DNA of 43,846 nucleotides, taken from assembly GCA_035686305.1 (NCBI GenBank), contig DASRZP010000094.1, positions 1-43,846 of the forward strand, read 5' to 3'. Shown here piece by piece: positions 11,568-43,846 of the stretch. The notes under the pieces were generated by a model. It made no database searches and had not been told where the DNA came from. It saw nothing but the letters and a program-made list of their open reading frames with translations. How positions within the stretch are numbered: position 1 is the stretch's first letter; each line of letters begins with the position of its first letter. Source of the stretch: Thermodesulfovibrionales bacterium (GTDB lineage: Bacteria; Nitrospirota; Thermodesulfovibrionia; Thermodesulfovibrionales; UBA9159). The translations under genes were made by a program, and so were the position numbers.

Positions 11568-11670
11568 GACAGGAGCGGACATCGGATCTCCTGGATTGAC
11601 GACGGCAGGAGATATACGTTGGTAGAGCAGGCTGAAGCACTGGAAAGAGTAAGGATCAGGTAAACTGACG

Positions 11671-11691: not shown

Positions 11692-11758
11692 CCTTCATGT
11701 CTCATGATTCGCTCTATGCTAAACTTATTCAGACAAGAACAATCAAAATATATTCGAT

Positions 11759-13636: not shown

Positions 13637-13866
13637 AATCCAATGATATCAAAGTGCGTATGGAGCATCAAACTATTTCTGTAACCATTTATTGTTTTCT
13701 CATGGAATATGCCTATATTGACAGCACTTTGACCGGGCACAGCAAGACATGCATGTCGCCAAACTCATGGTCAAAGCCGGTCTCACCTTCACTTGACAGT
13801 CCTGCCATCATGGTGATAGCCTTTCACCTGGTGTGTCGATCTCCTGGAACTCCTTTTCGGGGTACG

Positions 13867-16346: not shown

Positions 16347-17825
16347 ATGGCGGCGCGTAAAAATTTTCTCTACATTTATATCCTCGCATTCTTCTCTGGC
16401 ATGTGCATTATGGCCATCGAGTTGTCGGCTTCCAGGCTCATGGCGCCTTTTTTCGGTACCTCCACCTTTGTCTGGACCAATGTCATAGGGATCATTATGG
16501 TGGCACTCTCGATAGGGTACCTGGTTGGCGGGAAACTGGCTGACAGAAGGCCGAATCTTGAAATTCTCCTCAAAATACTCCTCGCCGCCTGTGCGTTCCT
16601 CATTACGATACCTTTTGCTGCTCCATCTGTGGTCGGGGGTATCATGTCGGTATTGAGGCATTCCAAATCCTCCTTTACGTTCATATTTTTCGGATCGCTT
16701 GCCTCAATAACCCTACTTTTTTCCTTGCCGATCCTCCTTATGGGCATGACCAGTCCGTTCCTCATAAGAATCGTCGCCAGCCGCGAAGATGTGGGTAACT
16801 CTGCAGGACATATTTTCGGCATCTCAACGATTGGAAGCATCGTCGGCACTTTTCTTCCAATACTGGTGTTCATTCCAACTTTCGGCACCGGAAGAACTAT
16901 TCTTTTTTTTGCCGTGCTGCTTCTTGGTGTTACCGCGGCCGGTTTTGCGAGGAAGCGTTATGTAATCCTCCCTCTTTTGTGCATAGTGTTTTTGTTAGTC
17001 CCGCTTCCGGCAGCACGGAAGAAATCTGGGCTCATTTACGCGACTGAGTCTGCGTACGAGTATATTGAGGTGCTGGACAATGGACGGTATCGCTTTTTGG
17101 CTTATAACAATATCGCCGGGTTCCAGACCATCGCGAGGAAGGACTCGCCGGTTACGGGGTACTATTTTGATTATTATTCACTTCTCCCTTACCTTACCGG
17201 GAAGAAAGCTGAGACCGTCTGCCTTATCGGTCTCGGCGGGGGGATCATTGCAAACCAGATCCAGTATTTCCATAAAGGAGTGAATGTTGACGGGATTGAA
17301 ATCGATCCGAAGGTCATTACCATAGCAAGGGAATACTTTGCCCTCACCGACAGGACACGAGTTTATAACCAGGACGGACGCATCTTCCTCAACCTCATAA
17401 GCAAGAAGTATGACATCATAATAGTTGACGCGTTCACCCAGCAGATCTATATCCCTTTTCATCTCACGACCGAGAATTTTTTCCGCGAGGCCAAGCAAAA
17501 GATGAATGCTCATGGTATCCTCGCTATCAACCTGGCATGCTTTAGAGACACTTCGCCACTCCTCAAAAGTGTCACCAATACTCTCCTCGCAAGTTTTAGG
17601 AATGTTTACAGGGTAAAGATCCCTGCCACGAACAACAGCCTCATTCTCGCCTCGGATGGTGAGATAGACTTCGGGAAGCTTTCCTCCGCCTCAGGCACCG
17701 AACTCGACGCGATAGCCTTGTACAGCATGAGGTCATTTCAAAAGGTCGAGTTCGACCCAGGCGTCGCTGTTCTTACAGACGACAGAGCTCCTATAGAGCA
17801 TATGGTGGACTGGGAGCTGTTGTAA
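16347..17825 (+). CDS. Fused MFS/spermidine synthase-like membrane protein
   Basis: 492 residues. The N-terminal half has seven to eight TM segments, beginning with the family motif FFSGMCIMAIELSASRLMAPFFG and a DR-rich loop (GGKLADRRP). From about residue 290 comes a Rossmann methyltransferase-like polyamine-synthase domain: VCLIGLGGGIIANQ (glycine-rich loop), GIEIDPKVI (acidic ribose-binding strand), NQDGRIFL and IIIVDAF. In true spermidine synthases the corresponding catalytic motif binds putrescine; here the Asp-x-x-Asp site is not clearly kept, so actual aminopropyl transfer is doubtful. ATG is preceded by AGGA. It has a good promoter upstream and stands alone. A larger relative lies at 39912-42935. 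Confidence 0.8.
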   Translation: MAARKNFLYIYILAFFSGMCIMAIELSASRLMAPFFGTSTFVWTNVIGIIMVALSIGYLVGGKLADRRPNLEILLKILLAACAFLITIPFAAPSVVGGIMSVLRHSKSSFTFIFFGSLASITLLFSLPILLMGMTSPFLIRIVASREDVGNSAGHIFGISTIGSIVGTFLPILVFIPTFGTGRTILFFAVLLLGVTAAGFARKRYVILPLLCIVFLLVPLPAARKKSGLIYATESAYEYIEVLDNGRYRFLAYNNIAGFQTIARKDSPVTGYYFDYYSLLPYLTGKKAETVCLIGLGGGIIANQIQYFHKGVNVDGIEIDPKVITIAREYFALTDRTRVYNQDGRIFLNLISKKYDIIIVDAFTQQIYIPFHLTTENFFREAKQKMNAHGILAINLACFRDTSPLLKSVTNTLLASFRNVYRVKIPATNNSLILASDGEIDFGKLSSASGTELDAIALYSMRSFQKVEFDPGVAVLTDDRAPIEHMVDWELL

Positions 17826-26856: not shown

Positions 26857-27507
26857 CTATCCCTTCCTCACCCCCTCCTTCAGGAAAATACCATATTTCG
26901 GGTGTTCAAAGGGATGAATATTCGGAAACTTTGCATAGAGCCATCCCTTGAATATCTCTTTGCCACCCTCAAAAACTTTTACGCCGACTGCGGGATTGTT
27001 GGGGTCGTTCGTGGCAGAAGTTGCCGTCCCTGGTTTCCCGGGTTGCATCCTGAAGTCAGGAAGGAATTCTCCAACGGATATCTTCAGGTCTGAATTGGGG
27101 ATCTGGAAATCGCTGTTGAGCTTCACTGTATATTCCTTTAACGTTTTGGCGGCCTTATCCTCAAAGACTATCTTCACCGAAGACCATTTCCCTTTCACTG
27201 CATCGGGGACAACAACCTTCATTTCACCCTTCGGAGCCCCATGCCCTGGCGGCATCTGACCTGCTGGTGGCATCTGACCTGCTGGCGGCATCTGACCTGC
27301 TGGTGGCATCTGACCTGCCGGCGGCATCTGACCTGCCGGCGGCATCTGACCTGCTGGTGGCATCTGACCTGCCGGTGGCATCTGCATGCCGGGCTCCATT
27401 GTCTGTGGGGCTTGAGGAAGTGGTTGCTCCTCCTTCTTTTTGCAGGCTCCAAGGCCGAAACTGACAGCCAGAACAATTCCGATGCTTATGATTAAAAACC
27501 TTCTCAT
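26857..27507 (-). CDS. DUF2155-family lipoprotein with MPPAGQ repeat linker
   Basis: 216 residues from the ATG at 27507, preceded by AGGAGG 7 bases away; an upstream extension to 27630 has no such signal. The signal peptide ends in a lipobox, GLGAC. After a short acidic stretch come seven exact MPPAGQ hexapeptides, then the folded domain: GKWSSVKIVFEDKAAKTLKE, then QIPNSDLKISVGEFLP, ending FKGWLYAKFPNIHPFEHPKY, which is the signature end of DUF2155. In that family the mature part sits in the periplasm; its role is not established. The Pro-rich linker would lift the domain away from the membrane. Confidence 0.8.
   Translation of the reverse strand: MRRFLIISIGIVLAVSFGLGACKKKEEQPLPQAPQTMEPGMQMPPAGQMPPAGQMPPAGQMPPAGQMPPAGQMPPAGQMPPAGQMPPGHGAPKGEMKVVVPDAVKGKWSSVKIVFEDKAAKTLKEYTVKLNSDFQIPNSDLKISVGEFLPDFRMQPGKPGTATSATNDPNNPAVGVKVFEGGKEIFKGWLYAKFPNIHPFEHPKYGIFLKEGVRKG
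27253..27378 (-). repeat. 18-bp minisatellite, seven in-frame units
   Basis: Seven tandem 18-bp units (plus strand CATCTGACCTGCYGGYGG) encode MPPAGQ. Units differ only at two pyrimidine wobble positions. The copy number can probably change by slippage without breaking the frame. Confidence 0.85.
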
Positions 27508-27876
27508 CGTGAAACCTCCTAAATATGTTATTATCGCTCGATTCCGAAACAACTCGCAACCAGTCCAAAAATGGTTTACTACGAGTCTTGCCTTAGGACA
27601 ATTCGCCCTCTTGCTGCGGCCCCCAGCCATAGGACCCTCTGTATTTCTGCAATGTCTGACAATGCTCTTTTCACGCTATAAATCCATGAAATCCAAAAAT
27701 TATAATTGCAAACTACAGTACCATATTTGAAAATTTTTGGCAAGAAAGCGTTTTGCCCATCTGATCAACAGGGGTAGTGAGGGATTGCCATGACTTGAGA
27801 CTTGTTGTGTTTGATGTGAGTCCGCTGAGATTGAAGTGAATGCGGGTAGGAGGACGTCACTATAGGAATCAACAGG

Positions 27877-28731: not shown

Positions 28732-30762
28732 CTATCGAAGAGGAGAGGTCGATAACACCATTGGCAATGTATTACAACTATCACTGTTTCCCAGTTCGCA
28801 CGCCCTCCGGTAATCCGCTTCAGCCTGCACCCTCCTGCCGGTTCTGAGGTACATATTGGCACGGTTAAAATATGCGCTATCATTATTAGGATCCAGGCGG
28901 ATTGCTGCAGTAAAATCTTCAATAGCCCTGTCGTACCGGTCAATGAAGGAATAGTTTAACCCTCGGTTATTGTAAGCTATTGCGTAATCCGGGTTTATTT
29001 CAACGCAGCGACTGAAGGACTCTATCGCCTTATCATACATTCCTCCATCGCTGTAAAGGACGCCTATATTATTATAGGCCCTGTATTCATTCGGATTTAA
29101 TGCTATCGCTTTCTGAAAATCTTCGATTGCCCTAGGAAGGTTGCCAATTTTGCTGTATGTCAGACCGCGGTTAAAATAAGCCTCATAAGCGTTTGGATGC
29201 AACATGATCGCTTTGTTATAGCTTTCAATTGCACTATCTAATCGGCCCAATTTGTCAAATATCGAGCCACGGTTTAGGTATGCCAAATAATCGCCCTGAT
29301 CTAAGGAAAGCGCCTTGTCGAAGTTCTCCATTGCCTTGTCGTACTGACCCATTTTCTGATAAACCGAGCCAAGGTTCGTGTAAGCGATGGAAACCTGCCC
29401 GGGTTCCTTCTCGATAACATAGCTCCACAGGGAAAGGCCGTTTTTCCAGATCTTTATTTGGCTAATCGTTGTGTACGACAAGCCTACGCATGTCGCCATC
29501 GCCCCAGCGAGAAAGAGAGCCGAAGCGATGAACCTCCACCGTTTTTGGCTTATGATTTTCTCCCAGAGCCATGATGTTCCCAAGGCGATGATAAGAAAGG
29601 GCGCAAGACCGGGTAAGTAGGTATATCTGTCTGCCATTGATTGACTTCCCACCTGCACAATGCCGATCACGGGGAGCAAGGTAGCAACATAATAGCCCCA
29701 GGCCGTCAACCACAACCTGTTTCTCCCCGCAACTAAAACACAACATACTGTTATTCCGATCACGAGAGCCACAGCAAGAACAAATTCCGGAGATGCAAGT
29801 GATATGTTTTTCGGATAGGGATAATAGGGAATAAAATTCCGAGGCGCCACCATCTTCCACAGATAAGTGATGAGAGATCGTGCGACTACAAGCAACCTTT
29901 CTGATAAGGGTACGTACTCCACCGAAACTATAGCACCTCCGCTTTTTTGTGCAAGAATAGTCAGTACCGATGAGATGAGGCTTAACGCAATAAAGGGAAG
30001 TTTTTCTACAAGCGCTGCGTAGAGTGCTTTAAGTGACAGGATTCTTCTTAAAGGATACCAGTCCAGGATTAACAGAACAACAGGAAGGCTGACCGCCATC
30101 GGTTTACTTAATAACGAGAGGACAAAAAAACCAAGAGTAAGCTGATATTCCTTGAAGAAGAACCGCATCCACTTTTTTTGAGCTATGTCTTCGCCGACAC
30201 GGTTTACATATCGTGTATACATTGTGATGCTGAGGAGGAAGAACAGCGCACACAGAAGGTCTTTTCTCTCCGCGATCCATGCCACCGATTCCACATGCGC
30301 GGGATGAAGACCGAACAACAAACCCGTAACTCCCCCCGTTACGAGAATCGCACGGCCACTTAGCAGTGATGTTACTCGACTCCCTTGGTCTGTCTCCTTC
30401 AGGATGCGTTGAAGCCTCACTACGAGACACACCACGATAAAGGTGTTGGCAGCATGAAGAATATTGTTCGTGAGATGATAGCCCAAAGGATTCAATCCCC
30501 AAAGGGAATAATCAAGGGCATAGGATATCCATGTAAGGGGAAACCAGTTGCTTGCATAGAAATCAAGGGATGCCCACTTGAGAAAAGCCATAGTGAATGA
30601 ATGAATATGAAAATTATTCAGGACATATTCACCGTCGTCCCATTCTGCTATGAAACTATTCTGAAGGGAAGCGAGATAGGCTCCAAACGTGATAAGGGCA
30701 GCCAAACCAGCGAGGCAGTATTCAGAGGTATGTGGTTTTCTCATAAAAAATCTGAAACTCAT
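28732..30762 (-). CDS. TMTC-like GT-C glycosyltransferase with C-terminal TPRs (class I)
   Basis: 676 residues, or 670 from the second ATG (MRKPHTSEYC), which aligns with the 13867 paralogue; neither has a clear Shine-Dalgarno. Motifs match the 13867 protein closely: AEWDDGEYVLNNFHIHSF, SNWFPLTWISYALDYSLWG, LHPAHVESVAWIAERKDLL, SKPMAVSLPVVLLILDWYPL and QSMADRYTYLPGL. About ten TM helices, then six to seven TPRs from about residue 450. It ends YRRACELGNSDSCNTL, the two-cysteine tail. It converges with the periplasmic gene at 27947 and stands alone, inverted relative to 13867-15924. Confidence 0.84.
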   Translation of the reverse strand: MSFRFFMRKPHTSEYCLAGLAALITFGAYLASLQNSFIAEWDDGEYVLNNFHIHSFTMAFLKWASLDFYASNWFPLTWISYALDYSLWGLNPLGYHLTNNILHAANTFIVVCLVVRLQRILKETDQGSRVTSLLSGRAILVTGGVTGLLFGLHPAHVESVAWIAERKDLLCALFFLLSITMYTRYVNRVGEDIAQKKWMRFFFKEYQLTLGFFVLSLLSKPMAVSLPVVLLILDWYPLRRILSLKALYAALVEKLPFIALSLISSVLTILAQKSGGAIVSVEYVPLSERLLVVARSLITYLWKMVAPRNFIPYYPYPKNISLASPEFVLAVALVIGITVCCVLVAGRNRLWLTAWGYYVATLLPVIGIVQVGSQSMADRYTYLPGLAPFLIIALGTSWLWEKIISQKRWRFIASALFLAGAMATCVGLSYTTISQIKIWKNGLSLWSYVIEKEPGQVSIAYTNLGSVYQKMGQYDKAMENFDKALSLDQGDYLAYLNRGSIFDKLGRLDSAIESYNKAIMLHPNAYEAYFNRGLTYSKIGNLPRAIEDFQKAIALNPNEYRAYNNIGVLYSDGGMYDKAIESFSRCVEINPDYAIAYNNRGLNYSFIDRYDRAIEDFTAAIRLDPNNDSAYFNRANMYLRTGRRVQAEADYRRACELGNSDSCNTLPMVLSTSPLR

Positions 30763-31439: not shown

Positions 31440-33593
31440 GTGAAAGTGCATTTCGAATCGAATGGAGCTGGGGCCCGCTTTCTTGGATGGAAGACTGCTC
31501 ATCTTTTTCTTATCGTCATCCTTGGCTTCATTGCATATTCAAACAGCCTGCATTCGCCCTTCGTCTTTGACGACGAACCAAGCATACTAGAGAACCCTGT
31601 CATAAAAGACATGAACAATTTTTTTCTCAACACGACCGGATACGAGTATAACCCAAGGAGATTTATCGGCTACCTGACAATAGCCATGAATTATGCGTTT
31701 GGGGGTCTCGACGTAACAGGCTATCATGTCTTCAACCTCGCGGTCCACATCGCCAATGCCCTATTGGTCTATGCGCTTATTGTACTGACCTTTAGAACCC
31801 CATACATGAGGAACTCTTCCCTCTCCCAGTCATGGCGGCCGATCGCTTTTTTCTCCGCAGCCCTCTTCGCGGTCCATCCCGTCCAGACCGAAGCGGTAAC
31901 CTTCATAGTACAGAGGTTCACTTCCCTCGCGACGATGTTTTACCTCATGTCGCTCTGTCTATACGTGAAGTGGAGGCTTATGGGGAATTCTGAGAAGCCA
32001 TCGGGTGGGAAGGCCCTCTTTTGGTATTTTCTCTCGTTGGCTGCAGTCGTCTTTGCAATGAAGACAAAAGAGAATGCCTTTACCCTTCCGGTCATGGTAG
32101 TACTCTATGAAGTCTTCTTCTTCAGATTGCCGATGCGCGAGAGGCTGCCTTTTCTTGCGCCGATTGTCGCAACGCTCCTCATCATCCCCCAAAGCATGTT
32201 AAACGTTGGTAAACCTCTGGGGGAAGTCCTCTCCGATGTGAGTGAGGCCACAAAAATCCAGACGGATGTGACGAGATGGGATTACCTGATGACCCAATTC
32301 CGTGTCATTGTCACCTATGTAAGGCTGCTCTTCTTCCCGGTCAACCAAAACCTTGATTACGACTATCCGATTTACCGTTCCCTTTTCACCCCTCCCGTCC
32401 TACTCTCTTTTTTGTTCCTGCTTTCGTTATTTGCCCTTGGCGTATATTTCTTCCGCCGTTCGGCACGGGATGTGTCGGAAGGCGGATTCGGATTGCGGTT
32501 GGTCTCGCTTGGGATCATATGGTTCTTCATTACGCTGTCTGTAGAGTCAAGTATTATCCCCATTGCTGACGTAATATTTGAACATAGGGTATATCTGCCC
32601 TCTGTCGGCCTATTAAGTGCCTGTGTTACAGCGGTGGTGGCCTTTGGGGACGGACTGAAGAGCAGGAGTGCATTTATCATCAAGACGATTACCCCATTGC
32701 TTGCCATCGTAGTGTTCCTTTTTGGACTGGCAACATTTTCGAGGAATATGGTGTGGAATGATGCCCGGACTCTCTGGATGGACGCTGTGAAAAAAAGCCC
32801 TGCAAAGGCTCGAGCCGTCTATAACCTTGGTCAGGTTTACGATGTCAGGGGGGCTCTCGAAGAAGCGGCTGGTCTCTACCGGACTGCAATCAGACTTGAC
32901 CCTAATCTCTCCCACCCATACAATAATTTGGGGACCATATACGAGAAATGGGGACGTATTGACGAGGCGATCCGGTTGTACAAAGAAGCTATTGTGCTTT
33001 ATCCCGAAGATGAAGATGTCGTTGCGCGCGCAAACCTCGGTGCGGCATACGCTAAGCAGGGCCGGTTTGCAGAGGCCGTTTCGGTGTTGATGAGAGCTAT
33101 TCAAATCAAGCCTGATTATGCCATAGCCCATAACAATCTCGGTAATGTTTACTCTGAACGCGGTTATCTTGATAACGCAGTGCATGAGTACCGGGCAGCC
33201 ATTGCAGCCAAGGGTGATTTTGCCGCGGCACATATCAATCTGGGGCTGGTGTACGCAAAGCAGGGCTTCCTGGATAAAGCTGCCGAGGAATTCAGGTTGG
33301 CGATACGCTTTGAGCCGAGGAGTTTTGAGGCCTTCAATAACCTGGGAATGGTGTATATGAAGCAGAGCAATCCCGATGGGGCTTTGCGAGAATTCCGACG
33401 GGCCTTAGAGCTTCAGCCCGGCAACCCTGAGATACATGCGAACATCGGCAGGGTTTACATGAACACGGGGAATTTTGAGGAAGCCCTCAGAGAGTTCCAG
33501 ATAGCACTGAACATCGCTCCTGATCTTCACGAGGCCCGTTATTATCTTGAGCTTACCCAAAAGAGACTTCTGGAGAGCGCCCATCGAAAATAA
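31440..33593 (+). CDS. TMTC-like GT-C glycosyltransferase with C-terminal TPRs (class II)
   Basis: 717 residues from a GTG preceded by GGGAG. Loop 1 has FVFDDEPSILENPVIKDM (D44-D45), then RRFIGYLTIAMNYAFGGLDV, VHPVQTEAVTFIVQRFTSLA, TKENAFTLPVMVVLYE and IADVIFEHRVYLPSVG. About ten TM helices end near residue 440. Seven TPRs follow (about 455-705), including YAIAHNNLGNVYSERGYLDN, FAAAHINLGLVYAKQGFLDK and PEIHANIGRVYMNTGNFEEA. It heads the tight operon to 39342, which also contains a GT2 and a second GT-C transferase. That is the strongest context here for a lipid-linked sugar transfer pathway. Confidence 0.85.
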   Translation: MKVHFESNGAGARFLGWKTAHLFLIVILGFIAYSNSLHSPFVFDDEPSILENPVIKDMNNFFLNTTGYEYNPRRFIGYLTIAMNYAFGGLDVTGYHVFNLAVHIANALLVYALIVLTFRTPYMRNSSLSQSWRPIAFFSAALFAVHPVQTEAVTFIVQRFTSLATMFYLMSLCLYVKWRLMGNSEKPSGGKALFWYFLSLAAVVFAMKTKENAFTLPVMVVLYEVFFFRLPMRERLPFLAPIVATLLIIPQSMLNVGKPLGEVLSDVSEATKIQTDVTRWDYLMTQFRVIVTYVRLLFFPVNQNLDYDYPIYRSLFTPPVLLSFLFLLSLFALGVYFFRRSARDVSEGGFGLRLVSLGIIWFFITLSVESSIIPIADVIFEHRVYLPSVGLLSACVTAVVAFGDGLKSRSAFIIKTITPLLAIVVFLFGLATFSRNMVWNDARTLWMDAVKKSPAKARAVYNLGQVYDVRGALEEAAGLYRTAIRLDPNLSHPYNNLGTIYEKWGRIDEAIRLYKEAIVLYPEDEDVVARANLGAAYAKQGRFAEAVSVLMRAIQIKPDYAIAHNNLGNVYSERGYLDNAVHEYRAAIAAKGDFAAAHINLGLVYAKQGFLDKAAEEFRLAIRFEPRSFEAFNNLGMVYMKQSNPDGALREFRRALELQPGNPEIHANIGRVYMNTGNFEEALREFQIALNIAPDLHEARYYLELTQKRLLESAHRK

Positions 33594-33603
33594 GGAACAT
33601 GTA

Positions 33604-34704
33604 ATGCCGTTATGGGTGAGAGTCCTCATCGCATTATGCCTGCCGTTGTTGTTCTGTGACACCGGGCATGCCCAGGAATATAGGTGGAACTTCAATGAGG
33701 CCGGGAGTTCGCTTCACTGGAAGGCAATTCACGCCTCTGTGGAGCAAGGGAGTTCCGGAGTCGTTATTACGCGTGGCGATGATACCTTCTGGTTTGTATC
33801 TCCACCGAATCTCAATATCCCTCCGAGGGTCACATACGTGGAGTTCAGGCTCAAGGCTCCCGCAACATATCTTTTGGGGTACCTCGTCATGAAGACCGTT
33901 AATAACCAGACATGGCAGGAGGAATTTCAGCTTGGGCTCCCCGATAGGTTTAATGTCTACCGCGTCAATATGCGGGAGGGAGATGTCGGGAATTCTCCCA
34001 TAGATTCCTTCGCCTTTGCCTTTGGCGGTCTTGGTCTTGACAAGGTTGAACTGGACTATGTGAGGTGTTATGAGCCTTCATTCCTCCAGTTAGCACGCAT
34101 ACGCTGGATGGAATTCTGGAGCGCAGGCTATGCAAGGGCCGCGACAGTGAACTTTATCGATATGCCCTTTGTCGGCGAGGTATCGTTGCTTGCATTGCTT
34201 TATATATTTATCCTGAGCTCCATAGTCTGCGCGATTGCTGCCCTCAGAGCAGTGAACATGGCCGCGCTGAGGAAGGCGCTCATCATCTCCTTCGTCCTGG
34301 CAGGAATTCTCTTTGCCCTGAGAATGGACTATGGATGGTACTGGATGTGGCGTTTAGATAGGTCGACTCTGTCCCAGAGGACCTATGAAGAGAGAGTTGC
34401 GCTCGTGGATGCTACAGGATCATACGAGTTTGCCGGCATGGTCAGGAAACTGATCCCTCCCGATGCATCAGTGAGGATTGAGTGCGGGACCCTTGCCGAA
34501 AAAATCAAATATTACCTCCTGCCGCTGAAAGCGTCCGAACACGGGAGATATGTCATCGTCTGCAGTGATAGCGGTATAACCTATGATCCCGATGAGAAAG
34601 TGCTGAAGAGAGGCGAAGCCGTCGTCGCAGACCGCGCATTCTTCATGCAATCCCTGAGGAAAGATTTTTTTCTTTACCGGCTCGATGGGATGATGCCGCA
34701 ATGA
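33604..34704 (+). CDS. Exported N-domain plus membrane-spanning protein, unknown
   Basis: 366 residues from the ATG at 33604, with AGGA 8 bases upstream and 10 bases after the previous stop. An earlier in-frame ATG lies inside the upstream gene. The signal peptide ends TGHAQ. Residues about 25-155 form a beta-rich domain (YRWNFNEAGSSLHWKAIHAS, YVEFRLKAPATYLLGYLVMK, DKVELDYVRCYEP) with the look of a carbohydrate-binding jelly roll. Two TM helices (about 195-218 and 222-245) separate it from a C-terminal domain with a conserved-looking ERVALVDATGSYEF and GRYVIVCSDSGITYDP. Its stop overlaps the next start by four bases, so translation is coupled to the GT-C transferase. Confidence 0.75.
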   Translation: MPLWVRVLIALCLPLLFCDTGHAQEYRWNFNEAGSSLHWKAIHASVEQGSSGVVITRGDDTFWFVSPPNLNIPPRVTYVEFRLKAPATYLLGYLVMKTVNNQTWQEEFQLGLPDRFNVYRVNMREGDVGNSPIDSFAFAFGGLGLDKVELDYVRCYEPSFLQLARIRWMEFWSAGYARAATVNFIDMPFVGEVSLLALLYIFILSSIVCAIAALRAVNMAALRKALIISFVLAGILFALRMDYGWYWMWRLDRSTLSQRTYEERVALVDATGSYEFAGMVRKLIPPDASVRIECGTLAEKIKYYLLPLKASEHGRYVIVCSDSGITYDPDEKVLKRGEAVVADRAFFMQSLRKDFFLYRLDGMMPQ

Positions 34705-36113
34705 TGCTCCTCATGCTTACCTATGCTATCCTCTTACCTGTTCTGGCAGGGTTTCTGTTTGTGACATATGTCCTCCGCTCTAATCCCGAAATTGGTTTTT
34801 TTGAAAGACTCTTCTTTGGCTTTGGCTTAGGTACGGGTCTGATGACCTTCGAGATGTTCCTGATCGCCTGGGCCGGCATCCCGTTCAGCACCCTCATTGT
34901 TTCATTGATTCAGGCCGTAACGGTGATCGCCTTCGGCTATCCGGCCTACAGATCGGGAGCATTATTTCAGAGGAATTCCTTACCTTCGTTTACTATTCAG
35001 TGGAACAGGTCCATGGCCGGGCGCCTGAGAAGCGCCTTCCTCGTGTTTTTGTTCTGCTGGATCATCTTAAAAGTATTGATTGTCTCATACGAGAGCTATA
35101 TCCTTCCGGTGAATTCCTTTGACAGCTGGGCGCACTGGAGTTCCGGTGCAAAGTTCATCTTCTTTGAAAAGGGGTTAGCCCTCGATCCGTCCAATGAACA
35201 TTATTTCGGTGCGGGGTATCTCAAGATTCAGAGGTATCCCCTGCATATTCCGCTGCTCCAGGTCTGGGCGTCTCTCTGCATGAACGAGGTGCATGAATCA
35301 TATATGAAGGTATGGAGCCTTTATTATTATATTTCGATTATCGGCCTTACGTACTTCTCCGTGAGGCGGGAGGCATCACAGCTCGTTGCCCTTCTGGCAG
35401 CCTTTTTCGTGTCAAGTGCTCCCTTGCTCACCTATCATGCCATTATCGCCTATGCAGATCTGCCTTTAGGTTATTATGCGCTTGGCTGTGCGATTTGTTT
35501 TTGGACATACATCAAAAGCACCTCAAACGGTAATGGTCATGGCAGCGGCGGTCCGCTTGTATTGATGGGCATCTTTGCAGCCTTTGGCCTCTGGACAAAA
35601 ATGGAGGGACTGTTGTTTGCTGCTGCATGGGCTTTGGGACTGATGCTCCTTCGCATAAAAAAAATGTCCTGGTCGAACCTTTTCCGTTATCTCACTCCTG
35701 TTTTTTTTGTTGCGGTTCCATGGTATGTATTTTTACTCACCACGGGCGCCACCGTAAGCTACGGGGAGGAAAAAGAGGTTGGAGCGGCCGTCGCGCGGGG
35801 GCTCCATGTTGAGGTCCTGCCAGTGATCTTGAAAGAGCTTGTGATGTCAGCCAATTTCAACATGATATTTCCTTTTCTGTTCGCGCTCTGTTTGTTTGGG
35901 GCAAGAATCATTCTCCGTTCCGATCTGAAGTATCTTCTCGTCCCCCTCATTACGGGCCTCACGTTGTTCCTTTTCCTGTATGTGGCAACGAGCAGTTATA
36001 TGTGGGTAACTACGCTGACTGCGATCGACCGCAACATCCTGACATTCCTTCCAATGGTGTATTATATAACAGTGCTGATCGCTATAAAATTGCAGAACCG
36101 CGAGGGTTTATGA
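34701..36113 (+). CDS. Polytopic GT-C/PMT-like glycosyltransferase without TPRs
   Basis: 470 residues. The start overlaps the previous gene (ATGA). About eleven TM segments. After TM helices 1-4 comes a loop with ILPVNSFDSWAHWSSGAKFI, whose Asp sits where GT-C enzymes keep their first-loop acidic residue. It is followed by GYLKIQRYPLHIPLLQVWAS, YADLPLGYYALGCA and GLWTKMEGLLFAAAWALG. That layout is typical of ArnT/PMT-like family members of uncertain substrate. There is no TPR tail. The position between a periplasmic protein and a GT2 plus DUF2304 pair suggests it uses the polyprenyl-linked sugar that the GT2 makes. Confidence 0.75.
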   Translation: MMLLMLTYAILLPVLAGFLFVTYVLRSNPEIGFFERLFFGFGLGTGLMTFEMFLIAWAGIPFSTLIVSLIQAVTVIAFGYPAYRSGALFQRNSLPSFTIQWNRSMAGRLRSAFLVFLFCWIILKVLIVSYESYILPVNSFDSWAHWSSGAKFIFFEKGLALDPSNEHYFGAGYLKIQRYPLHIPLLQVWASLCMNEVHESYMKVWSLYYYISIIGLTYFSVRREASQLVALLAAFFVSSAPLLTYHAIIAYADLPLGYYALGCAICFWTYIKSTSNGNGHGSGGPLVLMGIFAAFGLWTKMEGLLFAAAWALGLMLLRIKKMSWSNLFRYLTPVFFVAVPWYVFLLTTGATVSYGEEKEVGAAVARGLHVEVLPVILKELVMSANFNMIFPFLFALCLFGARIILRSDLKYLLVPLITGLTLFLFLYVATSSYMWVTTLTAIDRNILTFLPMVYYITVLIAIKLQNREGL

Positions 36114-36114
36114 G

Positions 36115-36822
36115 ATGTCAGTAGAAGGTCTCATCATTATACCTGCCTTTAATGAAGCATTGAACATCGGGAGGGTGCTGAATGATATCAAGACCCATGC
36201 CCCGGATCTCGATGTCATTGTGGTGGATGACGGCTCGACAGACTCTACAGCGGATGTTGCAGCGCAGTGTAACACAGATGTTCTTCGCCTGCCTCATAAC
36301 CTCGGCATTGGCGGAGCGATGCAGGCGGGTTACAAGTACGCGGAAAGAAAAGGCTATGAGATGGCAGTGCAGTTCGATGGAGACGGCCAGCATAGGGCTG
36401 ATCAACTCGAGGCGCTTATCACGCCCATTATACATGGAGCAGCAGATTTTGCGATAGGGTCGAGATTTCTTGGTGAAAAGGCGTACCAAGGGCAATTCGC
36501 CAGACTCTTCGGCATAAAGATTCTGTCCCGGGTGGTTTCTCTTCTCGTCGGCCGGCGGATTACTGATCCGACTTCCGGTTTTAGGGCTGCCAATCGGAAG
36601 GTTATGGCTTTTTTTACCAGGAATTACCCCGATGACTATCCGGAGCCTGAAGCTGTTGTGCTCCTTCACCGGGCGGGCTTCAGGACGATAGAGGTCCCGG
36701 TGCTTATGCGAGAACGGCTTTCCGGCAGTTCGTCCATAACATCTGTGAACGCTTTCTACTACATGGTAAAGGTGCTCTTGGCGATAATGATCGATATGGT
36801 GAAGAGAGTGCCGATGGGGTAA
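36115..36822 (+). CDS. Glycosyltransferase family 2, DPM1-like polyprenyl-phosphate sugar synthase
   Basis: 235 residues, beginning one base after the previous stop. GT-A motifs in order: IIIPAFNEALNIGRVL, VIVVDDGSTDSTADV, HNLGIGGAMQAGYKYA, the metal-binding QFDGDGQH (DxD), then IGSRFLGEKAYQGQFAR, DPTSGFRAANR and YPEPEAVVLLHRAGFR. It lacks a C-terminal TM pair, as in soluble DPM1-like enzymes that work at the membrane face. Predicted reaction: nucleotide-sugar plus polyprenyl phosphate to polyprenyl-phosphate sugar. Its partner is the DUF2304 protein immediately downstream, a pairing seen in many polysaccharide loci. Confidence 0.9.
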   Translation: MSVEGLIIIPAFNEALNIGRVLNDIKTHAPDLDVIVVDDGSTDSTADVAAQCNTDVLRLPHNLGIGGAMQAGYKYAERKGYEMAVQFDGDGQHRADQLEALITPIIHGAADFAIGSRFLGEKAYQGQFARLFGIKILSRVVSLLVGRRITDPTSGFRAANRKVMAFFTRNYPDDYPEPEAVVLLHRAGFRTIEVPVLMRERLSGSSSITSVNAFYYMVKVLLAIMIDMVKRVPMG

Positions 36823-36824
36823 GA

Positions 36825-37178
36825 ATGGATATCATACCTTTTCTGACTTCCTGCGTCACGGCGCTGATCCTCATGTCTGTGGTCGAACTCATCAGGAGAA
36901 ACAGACTTAAGGAGAAATATTCGCTTCTGTGGCTTGTCGCCGCTTTTGTCATGCTTTTTTTCTCAATATCACGAAGCTCTTTGGAATGGCTATCCCTGCT
37001 CGTAGGCATTCAGTATCCACCTTCTTTTATCTTTATTCTCGCCTTTCTGTTCCTCATTGTAATCAACGTGCACTTTTCTACTGTCATTTCCGAACTCTTT
37101 GAAAAGAATAAGGACCTGACTCAGGAGGTAGCCCTGCTCAGGAAGTCACTTGAGGAGAAGAGGGAAGCAGACAACTGA
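36825..37178 (+). CDS. DUF2304 small membrane protein
   Basis: 117 residues, starting 2 bases after the GT2 gene. Three TM helices (about 5-20, 33-52 and 65-86) with the family string RRNRLKEKYSLLWL between the first two, and a C-terminal coiled-coil (KNKDLTQEVALLRKSLEEKR). DUF2304 proteins are usually encoded next to GT2 genes and are thought to help anchor or assist the transferase. That role is inferred from context. Confidence 0.85.
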   Translation: MDIIPFLTSCVTALILMSVVELIRRNRLKEKYSLLWLVAAFVMLFFSISRSSLEWLSLLVGIQYPPSFIFILAFLFLIVINVHFSTVISELFEKNKDLTQEVALLRKSLEEKREADN

Positions 37179-37179
37179 A

Positions 37180-39342
37180 ATGAAGCGAGAACAGCACCTC
37201 GTGCAGACAACAGCCCCTTTTGGAGAGGCGATTCCCTCCGGCATATCTGCGATTCATTATATCCTCCTGATTGTCGTCTGCCTTCTTGCTTATGTGAATA
37301 CCTTTCGTGCGCCTTTTCAGTATGACGACGTAGACCGGATGTTAAAAAGGCCCTTCGTGCAGGACATACGGCTCTTCTTCGATCCGGCAGGGCGAGAAAG
37401 ATTTGCTCATGAACACGACTTTAGCAGAAGGTCCGTAGGCTATTTCACCTTTGCCCTTAACTATGCGACGCAGAATGGGAAGACGGCTGGCTATCACGCG
37501 GTCAACCTTGCGATTCATACGCTGAATGCATTCTTAGTTTACGCCCTTGTTGTCCTCACCTTCCGGACACCGAATATGCGAGGATCATCCTTAGGGGGCC
37601 GCGCTCGAACTGTAGCTTTTTTTTCTGCCCTTCTTTTCGCCGGTCATCCTATTCAGACCGAGGCTGTTACCTATATTGTCCAGAGGCTCACCTCTCTGGC
37701 AACCTTTTTTTACCTGCTTTCCCTTGTTCTGTATATCACGTGGCGTCTGGAGGGTCATGAGAAGCCTGGAAGGTGGTTTTTCTATGGCTCGTCACTGCTG
37801 TCCGCAGTCTTTGCCATGAAGACCAAAGAGATATCCTTTACGCTTCCCGCAATTGTCACATTGTATGAGATGATGTTTTTCAGAGGAAAGGTCGGCAGCC
37901 GGTTGCTCGGTTTAATACCGCTGCTGATGACCATGCTCATCATTCCCATGAGTATGGCGGGAACAACGGGCAAGCCCCTTGGAGAACTCATGGGCGATGC
38001 GGGCGGGATGTTTCGGGCTCACAGCGCGCTTTCTCGCTGGGAGTATCTGGCGACCGAGATGCGGGTCATCATCACCTATATCAGGCTACTATTCTGGCCC
38101 ATGGGACAGAGCCTTGATCACGACTATCCCCTGTACGATTCCTTCTTTGTGCCGGCGGTGTTTCTGTCTTTTCTCATCCTGTCGGCAATCGTCGCAATCG
38201 GCGCATATTCCCTTTATCATTCCCGTGTCGTGCCGCAGGATTCACGGAGTTCCTCCTCACCCGGCACGCGCCACTCGTTGCGTCTCGTCGCCTTCGGTAT
38301 CTTCTGGTTCTTCATAACCCTTGCGGTCGAATCAAGCATTATACCGATTGCCGATGTCATCTCTGAGCACAGGCTTTACCTGCCCTCAATCGGGTTTATC
38401 CTTGCATGCACGAGCGCTCTTTTTGGGGGTGCAGAGAAACTCACATCCCGACGTAAAGGGTCTGTGAAGGTGCTCATCACGCTCCTTGCGATAACGTCGC
38501 TTTTTCTTGCCGGTCTTACATTTGCACGTAATATTGTGTGGAGCTCCGAGGTGAGCTTGTGGGAGGATGTCATACAAAAAAGCCCGATGAAGGCACGGGG
38601 ATACAACGGTCTTGGCCTTGCCTATTACAACATGCGCCAATACGATCGGGCGATTGCACAGTTCGAGAGGGCGGTTGCCCTGTATCCCTCCTATGGGGCG
38701 GCATTCAACAACTTGGGGAATGCCCTTTACCAAAAGGGTCTCTACGACAGGGCAATTGAGGCAGAGACCAGGGCAATTGCCCTGGGGTCGGACAACCCTG
38801 TCTTTTATTTCGGCCGTGGAATGTCCCTTGCCAAAAAGGGCGATTACGACAGCGCAATAAAGGATTACACCAGAGCGATTGCCATCGACCCCGGCTATGC
38901 GGACGCCTACAACAACCTTGGATTCGTCTATCATCTTAGGGGGGCCTTCTCCCTTGCCATAGAGCAGTACTCTCAAGCGATTGCCCTGGATGCCCGAAAT
39001 GCCCTTTTCTTTGAGAACAGGGGATTGGCCTATGCAGGAAATGGCGAACTCGACAAGGCTATCGAGGACTATTCGCAGGCGATTGCATTCGACCCAAGTC
39101 TTGTGAGCGCTTACAGCGGTCGAGGAATTGCTTACAGTCTTGAGGGCAGGCATGTTCAGGCAATGAGCGATTTTGACCATGCCATATTCCTGGAGCCCGG
39201 CAATGCTGAATCGTACGTCAGTCGCGGAGTAGCGAAAATGCGGGCAGGTCATCGCGGCGAAGCGCTCGCAGATTTTCAGCATGCATGCGATAAAGGCAGT
39301 GAAGCAGGATGCAGGGCCTTGCAGAAGGTGGGGCAGAAATAG
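37180..39342 (+). CDS. TMTC-like GT-C glycosyltransferase with C-terminal TPRs (class II with cysteine tail)
   Basis: 720 residues from the ATG at 37180, one base after the DUF2304 stop; an upstream ATG at 37150 lies inside that gene and is less likely. Motifs: APFQYDDVDRMLKRPFV (D49-D50), RSVGYFTFALNYATQNGK, GHPIQTEAVTYIVQRLTSLA, MKTKEISFTLPAIVTLYE and IADVISEHRLYLPSIG. About ten TM helices, then eight TPRs from about residue 465 to 700. It ends FQHACDKGSEAGCRAL. It therefore combines the class II membrane core with the two-cysteine tail otherwise seen in class I, which suggests domain exchange. Confidence 0.86.
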   Translation: MKREQHLVQTTAPFGEAIPSGISAIHYILLIVVCLLAYVNTFRAPFQYDDVDRMLKRPFVQDIRLFFDPAGRERFAHEHDFSRRSVGYFTFALNYATQNGKTAGYHAVNLAIHTLNAFLVYALVVLTFRTPNMRGSSLGGRARTVAFFSALLFAGHPIQTEAVTYIVQRLTSLATFFYLLSLVLYITWRLEGHEKPGRWFFYGSSLLSAVFAMKTKEISFTLPAIVTLYEMMFFRGKVGSRLLGLIPLLMTMLIIPMSMAGTTGKPLGELMGDAGGMFRAHSALSRWEYLATEMRVIITYIRLLFWPMGQSLDHDYPLYDSFFVPAVFLSFLILSAIVAIGAYSLYHSRVVPQDSRSSSSPGTRHSLRLVAFGIFWFFITLAVESSIIPIADVISEHRLYLPSIGFILACTSALFGGAEKLTSRRKGSVKVLITLLAITSLFLAGLTFARNIVWSSEVSLWEDVIQKSPMKARGYNGLGLAYYNMRQYDRAIAQFERAVALYPSYGAAFNNLGNALYQKGLYDRAIEAETRAIALGSDNPVFYFGRGMSLAKKGDYDSAIKDYTRAIAIDPGYADAYNNLGFVYHLRGAFSLAIEQYSQAIALDARNALFFENRGLAYAGNGELDKAIEDYSQAIAFDPSLVSAYSGRGIAYSLEGRHVQAMSDFDHAIFLEPGNAESYVSRGVAKMRAGHRGEALADFQHACDKGSEAGCRALQKVGQK

Positions 39343-39418: not shown

Positions 39419-39826
39419 GTGGCTATGAACACGGGAATCAAGGTATTTTTCATCCTCGCCCTCTTGGTGGCTGATTTGGCCTCTGTTGGGGCGGCAGAAG
39501 ATACATCCTGGAAATTTGTCACCGCCGACAGCAAGAGCGGCGAGCGCTACTTCTACCGCCCCGACAGCGTGACGCGGACCGCGAAGGACGGCATCGGCTT
39601 TAAAATGATGACCATCCACAGTGATGCTTCCAAGTCTTGGTCCGATTCAGAAATCGATTGTCACTTTAAGCTCATACGCGACCTCAGGACAAGAACCGAG
39701 AGGGGCACCAAGCCCCCTCTTTTCAATAACTTCCCTTCCGGCTGGCGCGCTTTTGATCTCGAGTCTTATGATGGCGCCAAGCTCAATTCTCCCGAGGCTG
39801 AGCTTTATAGGGTGTTGTGTAGATAG
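39419..39826 (+). CDS. Exported Adhesin_E-like protein
   Basis: 135 residues from a GTG at 39419, chosen because AAGGAGG lies 5 bases upstream; the next in-frame ATG at 39425 is 11 bases away. The signal peptide ends VGAAED. The mature part, WKFVTADSKSGERYFYRPDSV, then GIGFKMMTIHSDASKSWSDS, EIDCHFKLIRDL and YRVLCR, follows the W-x-Y-(D/P)-x-SV and S-x-x-x-DC spacing of surface-adhesin E-type proteins; the two cysteines could form a disulfide. It is the last gene of the 31440 operon, 76 bases after the TMTC-like gene, or has its own start. Confidence 0.7.
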   Translation: MAMNTGIKVFFILALLVADLASVGAAEDTSWKFVTADSKSGERYFYRPDSVTRTAKDGIGFKMMTIHSDASKSWSDSEIDCHFKLIRDLRTRTERGTKPPLFNNFPSGWRAFDLESYDGAKLNSPEAELYRVLCR

Positions 39827-39911: not shown

Positions 39912-42900
39912 TTGCACTTCTTTATATTGGTCACTATTTATCTGTTTTTTTTCTTCTCAGGAGCATCGGCACTCATCTATGAGGTAGTGTGGGTCCGTTC
40001 TTTGAGTCTTGTTTTTGGAGGCTCGCACCTTGCAGTTACCACCGTGCTCTCTGTTTTTATGGGAGGGCTGGCCCTTGGCAGTTACCTCATCGGCAAGAGA
40101 GTCAGCACTTATAAGAAGCTGTTAAGGCTCTACGGAATGCTTGAACTTGGAATCGCGGCCTTTGCTTTACTATTTGTGCTGCTGCTCAAGCTCTACCCCT
40201 CAATTTACGTCCCCCTGGCACAGATTGCCGTAACATCCCCGTTGTATCTTTCTTTCTTGCGTGTCACATTCTCGTTTATTGTCTTGATTGGACCGACGAC
40301 GCTTATGGGTGGAACGCTGCCGGTACTGTCGTCTCTGATCTCGACGCGGGCAAGAACGCTCGGGTCTCGTCTGTCTTTCCTGTACGGCTTCAATACCCTC
40401 GGCGCCGTTGCTGGTGGCACGACTGCAAGTTTTGTGTTACTGCCCAACTATTCGGTCGGAACGACCTTGGCGATAGCTGTGCTCATCAATGCCATGGTCG
40501 GTGCTCTCGCGATCTCTTTAGAAAATAGGGCAGAGGAAGTTTTTCAGGATAATCAACGCGAGGCAGAATTACCGGCTGACGCAGGGACCTTTCATGCCGG
40601 CTCAGCAGAAGGGCCGGGGTATCTTTTTTCGCTCAAGCTGGTGCTCTGGGGGATCGGGGTAAGCGGCTTCTGTGCACTGGGGTATGAGGTACTCTGGACC
40701 CGGATTCTCAGCATTGTAATAGGCGCAAGTGTATACGGGTTTGCCATTATACTGATGGCCTTTCTTGCGGGAATCGGTCTTGGAAGCGCTGCATACGGAT
40801 TGATTCTCCGGGTGTTTGCATCATTTCGCAGAGATGCCAGGGGTTATCCCATCAGATCAATAGTCGCCTTTGGCTTGGTCCAGGTGATGATAGGGCTTTC
40901 TGCGTTGGCTGTGACACTGAACATCCGGGACTTACCGTCGCACAGCGTGTCTTTGCATGATTTCTTCCGCAGTATACATTTCGGGATTGGGCAGTTTGGG
41001 ACGGGACAGTTGTCCAACTTCGTCCTTGCGTTCTCTTCTGTTTTTGTGCCTGCTTTTTTTATGGGGGTAGCCTTTCCCTTGGCAGGAAATATCCATGCCC
41101 AGCATAAAAGGATAGTGGGAAGCGCGGTGGGTGAGATACTGGCGTATAACACAATCGGCGCCATACTCGGGTCAGCAGTCAGTGGCTTTGTCCTCATCTA
41201 TCTGTTTGGGATACAGCAGTCCTTGCAGTTTCTGATCCTGATCAATATCGGTTTCGGGCTGTTCGTAATCGTGAGTGTTTGGGGCAGGAAGATGCTGAAT
41301 CGGGCAATAGTCGGTGCAGCGGCAACGGCCATATTGGTATTGGCGTTCAATCCCGGAGTCTGGCAAATATGGGATACCAAGTTTTACGCCATCTATCAAT
41401 CCCATATCCCGGAGTTATACAGCACGCCGGAGAAGATTCGTGAGACCATGGAAAACAACGACGTCCTCTATTCTGCCGAGGGTGTCCAGGCAATCGTGAG
41501 CTCTATACGCTCAGGGGAACGCCAGTATTTTATAACGAATGGCAGGGTTGAGGCTTCTAACAGCAATGAAGACAGGCAACTCCAATACGCATTGGGACAC
41601 GTGCCGATGCTGCTCAATAAGAACCCGAAGAAAGTCTTCGTCCTTGGCACGGGAAGCGGGATGACCCTTGGCGCTACTGCTGTGCATCCAAGTGTGGAGC
41701 AGGTCACCCTTGCGGAAATTGAACCAAAGGTCCTTGGTGTAGCGAGGACTTTCGGGATATACAACCACTATGTCATGGATAATCCGAAGGTGAAGGTTGT
41801 CTTTAATGACGGTAGGAATTTCCTGCTGACCACCAGGGAGAAGTTCGATGTCATCACCGCCGACCCGATTCATCCGTGGTTCGGCGGGGCAGGGTATCTT
41901 TATACCACCGAATATTTCAGGTTGGCTGCTCAACATCTCAATCCGGGCGGCATAGTCAGCCAATGGCTGCCTATCTATGAACTCACTGAGGAAAACCTCA
42001 AGTCTGTTGTGAAGACCTTCAGGGAGAACTTTAGGTACGTATCTGTATGGCTTACGTATAATGACGCAATACTCATCGGCAGTAACTCCCCCATTCTCAT
42101 TGACGAGGAGGAGTTGCAGCGGCGGATCAGGGCGCCGGAAGTCCTTCAGGATTTACAGACAGTCCAGATGGGATCTGCAGAGGATCTTCTGAGCTATTTC
42201 GTCATGGGAAATGAGGGCTCAAGGGCTTATAGCAGTGGGGGGATAATCAATACTGATGATAACGTGTACCTTGAATTCTCCGCGCCCCGCAGCATAGGAA
42301 AGTCTCACCTCATGGGGACGAATTTATCTGACATCGTCAAATACCGGGAAAGCATTCTGCCTTATCTGAGTATCCCTTCGGATGAAGCCGGCCGAGCGAG
42401 ACAGAAAGAAAGATGGTCGAAAAATTTGGACGCGGGGGTTCTCTATGACAAGGCCCATGTCCTAAGCCTTGCGGGACGCTCTGATACCCCCGGGTTTGAA
42501 CAGCTGGCGCATGAACTGGAGACTCGATACCCGGCGTATTCCCCATGGAGAATTCTTAAGGAGGAGGTGCGCGGTGAGGAAGGAGGGGAACCACGTCTCC
42601 TGAAACAGGTGGAATTATCTATTGTCAATGAAAAGGGCGAGATTACTAAACTTCAGTTTTCCGCGGTCATAATGAGAAGCAGCAAGGAAAGGGCGCGGGT
42701 GTTTTTTGTCGATAATACTTCTCGTGTCGTTTTTGGAAAGTTAAGGGTCCGAGGTGCAAACAGGGACGAATATATCAGAGGCTTCGTCGATGATGTGATG
42801 AAAAGTGTTTTGGAAGTCTATGACCAGGAGAGGAAGACGGCTGTCGCTCACGGAGCGGAATATCCGGTGGTGGCATCTGTTCTCCCCAAGATCAAGAGTA

Positions 42901-42935
42901 TGGTCGAATTAAAAGTCGAAAAGAGTGAATACTAG
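39912..42935 (+). CDS. Large fused MFS/spermidine synthase-like membrane protein
   Basis: 1007 residues from a TTG start. The membrane part (about 1-500) contains an internal duplication: the motif SGASALIYEVVWVRSLSLVF near residue 16 recurs as SGFCALGYEVLWTRILSIVI near residue 250, giving about 14 TM helices. Residues about 570-760 are a polyamine-synthase/methyltransferase domain: VFVLGTGSGMTLG, LAEIEPKVLG, VFNDGRNFL and ITADPIHPWFGG, where DPIHP replaces the usual catalytic D-x-x-D-P. The C-terminal 240 residues are soluble and not recognised, with a predicted beta-rich end. The smaller relative is 16347-17825. The stop codon TAG is shared with the insertion site of a MITE. Confidence 0.8.
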   Translation: MHFFILVTIYLFFFFSGASALIYEVVWVRSLSLVFGGSHLAVTTVLSVFMGGLALGSYLIGKRVSTYKKLLRLYGMLELGIAAFALLFVLLLKLYPSIYVPLAQIAVTSPLYLSFLRVTFSFIVLIGPTTLMGGTLPVLSSLISTRARTLGSRLSFLYGFNTLGAVAGGTTASFVLLPNYSVGTTLAIAVLINAMVGALAISLENRAEEVFQDNQREAELPADAGTFHAGSAEGPGYLFSLKLVLWGIGVSGFCALGYEVLWTRILSIVIGASVYGFAIILMAFLAGIGLGSAAYGLILRVFASFRRDARGYPIRSIVAFGLVQVMIGLSALAVTLNIRDLPSHSVSLHDFFRSIHFGIGQFGTGQLSNFVLAFSSVFVPAFFMGVAFPLAGNIHAQHKRIVGSAVGEILAYNTIGAILGSAVSGFVLIYLFGIQQSLQFLILINIGFGLFVIVSVWGRKMLNRAIVGAAATAILVLAFNPGVWQIWDTKFYAIYQSHIPELYSTPEKIRETMENNDVLYSAEGVQAIVSSIRSGERQYFITNGRVEASNSNEDRQLQYALGHVPMLLNKNPKKVFVLGTGSGMTLGATAVHPSVEQVTLAEIEPKVLGVARTFGIYNHYVMDNPKVKVVFNDGRNFLLTTREKFDVITADPIHPWFGGAGYLYTTEYFRLAAQHLNPGGIVSQWLPIYELTEENLKSVVKTFRENFRYVSVWLTYNDAILIGSNSPILIDEEELQRRIRAPEVLQDLQTVQMGSAEDLLSYFVMGNEGSRAYSSGGIINTDDNVYLEFSAPRSIGKSHLMGTNLSDIVKYRESILPYLSIPSDEAGRARQKERWSKNLDAGVLYDKAHVLSLAGRSDTPGFEQLAHELETRYPAYSPWRILKEEVRGEEGGEPRLLKQVELSIVNEKGEITKLQFSAVIMRSSKERARVFFVDNTSRVVFGKLRVRGANRDEYIRGFVDDVMKSVLEVYDQERKTAVAHGAEYPVVASVLPKIKSMVELKVEKSEY

Positions 42936-43084: not shown

Positions 43085-43162
43085 CTAGTGTGGTGAGTCA
43101 TAAAACATATGTAAAGAAGCGTTGGCCTCGATAGAAGCGTGGAACATAAGACAGGCACGCCA

Positions 43163-43846
43163 TTGAAGAAATCGCCTCACAGCCTCTGGCTGTTCATTAT
43201 CCCTCTTTTTGCAATCGCTCTTTACCTGGATACCCTCCGGAACGGTTTTGTCTATGACGATATCCCCCAAGTCGTCCAGAATCCCTGGATCAGAAACTTT
43301 CACAGCATCACCGTTATATTCACTTCAGGCGCCTGGGGATTTGCCGGCGAGGGGAGCAATTATTACAGACCATTAATGCACATCATCTACATGCTTACTT
43401 ATGCCCTCTTCGGTCTTAACCCTCTGGGATTTCATGTTATCAACATTGTTATCCATGCCGGGGTTTCCCTCCTTGTCTTTGTCCTGGCGTCGAGGTTCCT
43501 CGCCGGCGTCCAGCTAACGCACAGGCTACCGGCCCTGAGCGCCCCTGTTTCGGCAGGGCTGTTGTTCGCCGCCCATCCCATCCATACCGAGGCAGTCAGC
43601 TGGGTCAGCGGCATACCGGATCTCTCCTTCACTTTTTTTTGCCTCGCCTCGCTTCTGCTCTATATGAAGCTGCCTGCAAATAGGATTCCCTCTCTCCATC
43701 CTCACTACCCTCTGTCAGTCTTTCTTTTTTTTCTCGCGACATTATGCAAGGAAACGGCGCTTGTCTTTCCCTTTCTGGTCATCGCTTATGACCATTTTGT
43801 GAGAAGGGACCGTAGGACACTATGGAATCAGGCAGCTCGATACCTG
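43163..43846 (+). CDS. TMTC-like GT-C glycosyltransferase, N-terminal part (3' partial, class III)
   Basis: 228 codons, open at the right edge. Probable start TTG at 43163 with a weak AGG 8 bases upstream; an in-frame GTG at 43139 is the alternative. Loop 1 has NGFVYDDIPQVVQNPWIRNF (D32-D33), then YYRPLMHIIYMLTYALFGLN, FHVINIVIHAGVSLLVFVLA, AAHPIHTEAVSWVSGIPDLS and LCKETALVFPFLVIAYDHF. Among the nine, these motifs come closest to the eukaryotic TMTC order (DDI-AI-N, RPL---, HPIHTEAV--V-G-ADLL, -KE). TPRs would lie beyond the edge. It follows a MITE. Confidence 0.75.
   Translation, partial: MKKSPHSLWLFIIPLFAIALYLDTLRNGFVYDDIPQVVQNPWIRNFHSITVIFTSGAWGFAGEGSNYYRPLMHIIYMLTYALFGLNPLGFHVINIVIHAGVSLLVFVLASRFLAGVQLTHRLPALSAPVSAGLLFAAHPIHTEAVSWVSGIPDLSFTFFCLASLLLYMKLPANRIPSLHPHYPLSVFLFFLATLCKETALVFPFLVIAYDHFVRRDRRTLWNQAARYL

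Follow-up and report, generated by a model that had tools for sequence, protein, structure and literature searches.

Do the six genes at positions 31440-39342 of the window form a single pathway, in which one enzyme makes a lipid-carried sugar and others transfer it, and what would be the acceptor? The window is the whole stretch of DNA that we analyzed, 43,846 nucleotides, and corresponds to the complete contig C94 in a 3.23 Mb genome. In this region, six co-oriented ORFs lie on the + strand in the order TMTC-like, exported two-TM protein, GT-C, GT2, DUF2304, TMTC-like. They encode proteins of 717, 366, 470, 235, 117 and 720 aa and are separated by +10, -4, +1, +2 and +1 bases. An earlier note on this DNA had proposed this strand, order and spacing of -4 to +10 bases, and the ORF coordinates and junction sequences bear it out. 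The six genes are probably co-transcribed. Scans around the operon were uninformative: promoter-like sites were near chance level, and terminator-like matches were above chance but had weak stems. We put at about two in three the probability that the genes encode a maker of a lipid-carried sugar that feeds three GT-C transferases.

The candidate transferases and their partners

Genes 1 (31440-33593, + strand, GTG start) and 6 (37180-39342, +) encode TMTC-like GT-C transferases in which a membrane domain is followed by a C-terminal TPR array, the architecture of the TMTC/GT105 family; both have many TPR matches in Pfam. The AF2 model of residues 1-457 of gene 1, made with 52 homologues, has a pLDDT of 89 and a pTM of 0.91. 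Its best Foldseek matches, headed by Pmt4 and including ArnT, STT3/OST and AglB, all have the GT-C fold (probability 1.00). Gene 6 is 51% identical to gene 1 over the TMTC domain. A GT-C fold is well supported for both, by the model for gene 1 and by identity for gene 6. A PDB profile search with the TMTC alignment returned nothing useful.

The conserved residues of gene 1 are the acidic pair D44-D45, K210-E211...T215 and E381-x-R383-x-Y385. We compared them with the TMTC motifs and their human spacing as defined in PMC7801869. Motif M1 (DD, first outer loop) is intact among the 53 homologues (D44 in 53, D45 in 51), as is M4 (KE(T/Q)xxT; K210 in 53, E211 in 51, T215 at K+5 in 50), and both have the same spacing as in human TMTCs. 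The other two are altered: M3 (RxD) keeps its Arg in 51/53 and its Asp in 2/53, with Ala or Thr instead in 49/53, and M7 (ERxxY) reads E-H-R-L-Y, with the Arg shifted by one. The Pfam family TMTC_DUF1736 (PF08409) matched nothing in the genome at E<=1, and genes 1 and 6 gave nothing at E<=10. Because M3 and M7 are altered and PF08409 finds nothing, we call genes 1 and 6 TMTC-like and place them in a divergent subfamily. Paralogues at 28732-30762 and 13654-15924 read ERKD and DRYTY, closer to the animal motifs.

The genome holds 12 TMTC-like matches, eight of them on this contig, where they crowd positions 6662-15924, 28732-30762 and 43139-43846 in addition to the operon. In the TMTC tree, the copies starting at 6662, 13654 and 28732 group apart, together with a copy on contig C83, while the clade of gene 6 contains one TMTC of the syntenic relative L066 (L066_7018) and two of locus L012, all GT2-linked. 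Among named relatives, those nearest to gene 1 and its kin are mostly MAGs of Nitrospirota.

Gene 3 (34701-36113, +) encodes a putative transferase of the same fold that lacks TPRs. It carries the expected GT-C signature of DSWxxW, a later Asp, TKxE and an Arg in the last loop; the invariant residues in its alignment (A4) are D141 (of DSWxxW), D253, K300-x-E302 and R444. AF2 gave a model of middling quality (pLDDT 64, pTM 0.75), and the Foldseek matches AftA, AglB, Pmt4 and OST reach probabilities of up to 1.00 with E >= 0.039, short of the usual E-value threshold. No Pfam or NCBIfam family matched gene 3, and a PDB profile search with its alignment gave nothing useful. The GT-C fold of gene 3 is moderately supported by this model and signature. 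The earlier note's count of three GT-C enzymes is thus well supported for genes 1 and 6 and moderately for gene 3.

Gene 2 (33604-34704, +) begins at an ATG preceded by AAGGA, with a TTG at 33547 as a possible alternative start. It was described before as an exported N-domain protein. Export and the N-domain hold, but the description was incomplete: a signal peptide and an outer N-domain of ~175 aa are followed by a hairpin of two TM helices and a second, C-terminal domain of ~127 aa with a 'YYLLP' motif. The protein had no Pfam, NCBIfam or PDB profile match, and its orthologue in L066 is 49% identical. On contig C83, a gene-2 paralogue without the N-domain adjoins a gene-3 paralogue, and a TMTC and a GT2 lie in the same cluster. 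The C-terminal part of gene 2 is thus kept beside the gene-3 paralogue there, which suggests that the products of genes 2 and 3 function together. According to a proposal in a review, small GT-C enzymes may require a recognition protein of this separate kind (PMC8035078), and gene 2 is possibly the acceptor-recognition partner of gene 3. At this C83 locus (L089, same genome), both paralogues lie on the other strand from the TMTC, and an exported six-haem protein is related to one that follows the L066 operon.

The GT2 and DUF2304 genes

Gene 4 (36115-36822, +), a predicted GT2 polyprenyl-phosphate sugar synthase, matches PF00535 with 80 bits and has a DGD metal motif. Its best library matches are PpgS and AglJ; PpgS is the best in NCBIfam, with 99 bits, under the cut-off of 370. 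The best solved structure (PDB) is the P. furiosus DPM synthase (52 bits). Gene 5 (36825-37178, +) matches PF10066 (DUF2304) with 85.5 bits. Its hydropathy profile shows three hydrophobic segments (2-20, 31-49 and 69-87), predicted TM helices, and a charged C-terminal tail with six K/R, as in GacJ and WpsB. A GT2 with a DxD-type motif (DGD) and a DUF2304 gene lying 2 bases apart recall GacI/GacJ.

In characterized systems, GacI, which handles GlcNAc, is helped by GacJ (PMC8327497, PMC8035078, PMC10821137), WpsA is helped by WpsB in making GlcNAc-P-C55 (PMC10821137), and PpgS is helped by Rv3632 in making polyprenyl-P-GalNAc (PMC9671496). By analogy with these pairs, genes 4 and 5 would make a monosaccharide-phosphate-polyprenol, with gene 5 as a putative activator of the gene 4 enzyme of the GacJ/WpsB/Rv3632 type. 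Judged by sequence, family likeness fixes the kind of product and leaves the identity of the sugar unfixed.

Linkage with TMTC genes in two phyla

If the synthase serves the TMTC-like enzymes, their genes may be expected to lie together elsewhere. We searched GTDB contigs for this TMTC subfamily and obtained 79 loci, mostly from Nitrospirota and Desulfobacterota. A DPM1-like GT2 (at least 100 bits) lies near a TMTC gene (within 2.5 kb) in 22 of the 79 loci; this and the other linkage counts are lower bounds, because loci are cut at contig ends, and the enrichment and E-values derive from draft genomes. We counted 25 DPM1-like GT2 genes near TMTC genes (66/Mb); the remainder of these loci contained 7 (10/Mb), and 293 kb of randomly chosen contigs of the window's own genome contained none. 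The Poisson P of this enrichment, 8e-13, overstates the certainty, since some genomes contribute several of the 79 loci and homologous loci of one genome are not independent. On the other hand, the far regions of these clusters are often rich in glycosyltransferases, so the control is conservative.

A second approach was blind to the hypothesis. In an all-against-all clustering of neighboring genes, the GT2/DUF2304 family ranked first, occurring in 27 of the 79 loci at a median distance of 316 bp. Of the 13 DUF2304 genes in the 79 loci, 12 have a TMTC gene no more than 1.2 kb away; ten of the assignments were confirmed by Pfam. Starting from DUF2304 instead, all 29 Nitrospirota loci examined adjoin a GT2, and 11 of the 29 also have a TMTC-family GT-C. 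The earlier note had named, as grounds for giving up its reading, that homologues of the two TMTC-like genes never occur with the GT2/DUF2304 pair in other genomes; they do so repeatedly.

The gene order varies among linked loci. For instance, it is GT2-DUF2304-TMTC in L006, L012 and L017, TMTC-GT2-DUF2304 in L020, L045 and L080, and GT2-TMTC alone in L023, L029 and L040, and in L060 a DUF2304-GT2 fusion directly follows the TMTC. When mapped on a quickly built TMTC tree, the linked state requires 23 changes, at least 12 of them forced by well-supported branches. Because these changes are spread over the tree, the linkage is not one inherited block. Conversely, 57 of the 79 loci, some cut by contig ends, have no DPM1-like GT2 within 2.5 kb, and thus a TMTC needs no GT2 next door.

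The full operon is another matter. Outside this genome, the six-gene order turned up only in Nitrospirae DBS2-1.bin90 (locus L066), which reads TMTC-gene 2-[TMTC]-gene 3-GT2-DUF2304-TMTC-gene 7 and differs by a single additional TMTC that separates gene 2 from gene 3. Gene 7 (39419-39826, +), which begins 76 bases downstream of gene 6, encodes a small exported protein of 135 aa with a GTG start. It matches L066:9066-9587 (phmmer, 5e-51) and is otherwise absent from 118 genomes of the phylum; full-length gene 2 was likewise found in L066 alone among the other genomes searched. Because full-length genes 2 and 7 are confined to L066, the full form of the operon is rare, while the GT2-DUF2304-TMTC core is common.

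Two variants of the core were seen in passing. DUF2304-GT2 fusions, reported in Geobacter in PMC10821137, occur here as ORFs with DUF2304 at the N-terminus (L060:11828-12952 and L031:1261-2394). In eight Nitrospirota loci (family f18; L106, L108, L109, L110, L114, L115, L122 and L124), GT2-DUF2304 comes with a TMTC-family ORF of only ~400 aa, which seems to lack TPRs.

Donor, acceptor and competing explanations

The recurrent GT2/DUF2304-TMTC linkage supports the earlier proposal that the genes serve one pathway, in which the GT2 makes the donor lipid and the GT-C enzymes use it, and we regard this donor-user reading as well supported. We infer the following course. The gene 4 enzyme, anchored and activated by the gene 5 protein, would transfer one sugar from a nucleotide sugar to polyprenyl phosphate at the cytoplasmic face. 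The sugar-lipid would be turned over by a flippase encoded outside the operon; the operon has no flippase gene and the genome has no GtrA family member. On the periplasmic side, the GT-C enzymes of genes 1, 3 and 6 would use the flipped sugar-lipid. In genes 1 and 6, acceptor binding most likely falls to the TPR arms; for gene 3, recognition is probably supplied by gene 2 as a separate subunit. As acceptor we favor an exported protein, though a surface glycan is almost as likely.

We read the operon, with its GT-C genes encoded beside a putative donor synthase, as a new form of multi-component transmembrane glycosylation. The four-component GacI-GacJ-GacK-GacL system of Streptococcus pyogenes similarly combines in one cluster a GT2 (GT-A) and its DUF2304 activator, monosaccharide-P-undecaprenol as donor and a GT-C user (PMC8327497, PMC8035078, PMC10821137), whereas here the GT-C users number three, of which two bear large TPR arms, and the flippase gene is missing from the operon. 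PpgS-Rv3632-Rv3779, which modifies arabinogalactan with GalN in mycobacteria and corynebacteria, resembles it in that PpgS is the best NCBIfam match of gene 4 and is aided by Rv3632 as gene 4 would be by DUF2304 (PMC9671496); however, its GT-C belongs to another family without TPRs and it works in another envelope. In lactococci, the WpsA-WpsB complex of GT2 and DUF2304 has been demonstrated to synthesize GlcNAc-P-C55 (PMC10821137), but its product primes a polysaccharide repeat unit. Finally, TMTC1-4 (CAZy GT105) with DPM1 share with this operon a GT-C domain followed by TPRs, the DD of loop 1 and KE..xxT at the same spacing. Prokaryotic full-length homologues of TMTCs were already noted in PMC7801869. 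In contrast to TMTC1-4/DPM1, the bacterial genes are linked, lack a PF08409 match and have altered M3 and M7.

The strongest competing explanation keeps the donor-user logic but makes the acceptor a polysaccharide at the surface or a glycan carried on a lipid, by analogy with GacL, ArnT or Gtr; the TPRs would then be assembly platforms instead of readers of a protein acceptor. A glycan acceptor is favored by the characterized GT2 and DUF2304 systems compared here, which all decorate or build glycans, and by the polysaccharide genes around many TMTC loci (rhamnosyl-type GT2s, a Wzt-type ABC ATPase, DegT aminotransferases and epimerases). The window itself, however, has no polysaccharide gene cluster, and a protein acceptor is favored by the TPR arms and by the animal TMTCs, which bear TPRs and act on proteins (PMC7801869, PMC6801728). 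We consider a glycan acceptor a real prospect, at somewhat under even odds. In a different scheme, the lipid-linked sugar would prime a cytoplasmic oligosaccharide, as in lactococci where the WpsA/WpsB product is the acceptor for WpsC, and the GT-C enzymes would transfer or extend a larger glycan. Neither the operon nor L066 has a further cytoplasmic glycosyltransferase, and several linked loci hold the GT2(-DUF2304)-TMTC set with no other glycosyltransferase alongside, which makes this scheme quite unlikely.

A literal animal pathway, with gene 4 as a polyprenyl-phosphate-mannose synthase and genes 1 and 6 as protein O-mannosyltransferases, would fit the solved relative of gene 4 from P. furiosus, the intact M1 and M4 and the Pmt4 fold match. 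It fits less well with the altered M3 and M7 and the lack of PF08409, with PpgS, a GalNAc enzyme, as best library match of gene 4, and with DUF2304 partners elsewhere serving GlcNAc or GalNAc enzymes. We think it unlikely, and the view that the DPM1-like and TMTC-like genes are the direct bacterial parallel of the eukaryotic pair was overstated: genes 4 and 5 match PpgS-Rv3632 and GacI-GacJ. Still more improbable is that an expanded TMTC array, with eight of the 12 genome copies on this contig, merely trapped GT2, DUF2304 and GT-C genes without functional coupling. The density of TMTC genes along the contig and the rarity of the exact operon would allow it, but the linkage clearly exceeds local background and reappears in two phyla, on TMTC branches far from each other, and genes 1-7 hold their order in L066.

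The donor-user reading bears on proteins for which, in the literature that we found, nothing is reported on function in bacteria (TMTC/GT105) beyond the homology remark in PMC7801869. Bacterial TMTC-like proteins appear there only as sequence homologues, and their reproducible linkage to a polyprenyl-phosphate sugar synthase gives a likely donor and shows which pair to co-express. It would also make the role of the TMTC TPR arms open to study in a simple bacterial setting, and it extends the GT2/DUF2304/GT-C scheme, known from the walls of Gram-positive bacteria, to Gram-negative phyla whose user enzyme bears TPR arms. More speculatively, Nitrospirota and Desulfobacterota may have a widespread, dedicated protein O-glycosylation, in which GT2(-DUF2304) feeds TPR-armed TMTC-type transferases in the periplasm and TMTC paralogues have diversified for different exported targets. 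We hold this extension only tentatively and would not bet on it; if true, it would mean that bacteria operate an equivalent of the animal TMTC pathway.

Multihaem cytochromes were considered as a common acceptor on account of related cytochromes beside L066 and on contig C83. We rejected this candidate: their density is 25/Mb near TMTC genes and 26/Mb far from them, with eight in 293 kb of random contigs of the window's own genome. In four loci, including L033, members of a 13-haem family nevertheless lie ~80 bp away from a TMTC gene, although cytochromes in general are not enriched. In the window, a seven-CXXCH cytochrome (Paired_CXXCH_1; 8721-9371, - strand) lies between two TMTC-like genes.

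Other genes of the window include two membrane proteins with a spermidine-synthase domain (39912-42935, just downstream of the operon, and 16347-17825), the larger being a fused MFS/spermidine synthase; no homologue of either was found in L066. An ORF at 26857-27630 (- strand), exported or lipoprotein-like, contains an in-frame tandem QMPPAG repeat that is open in several frames. At 22129-26592, an exported protein of 1487 aa has RCC1 repeats followed by many Thr/Ser-rich repeats of ~70 aa, and it is conceivable as a glycosylation target.
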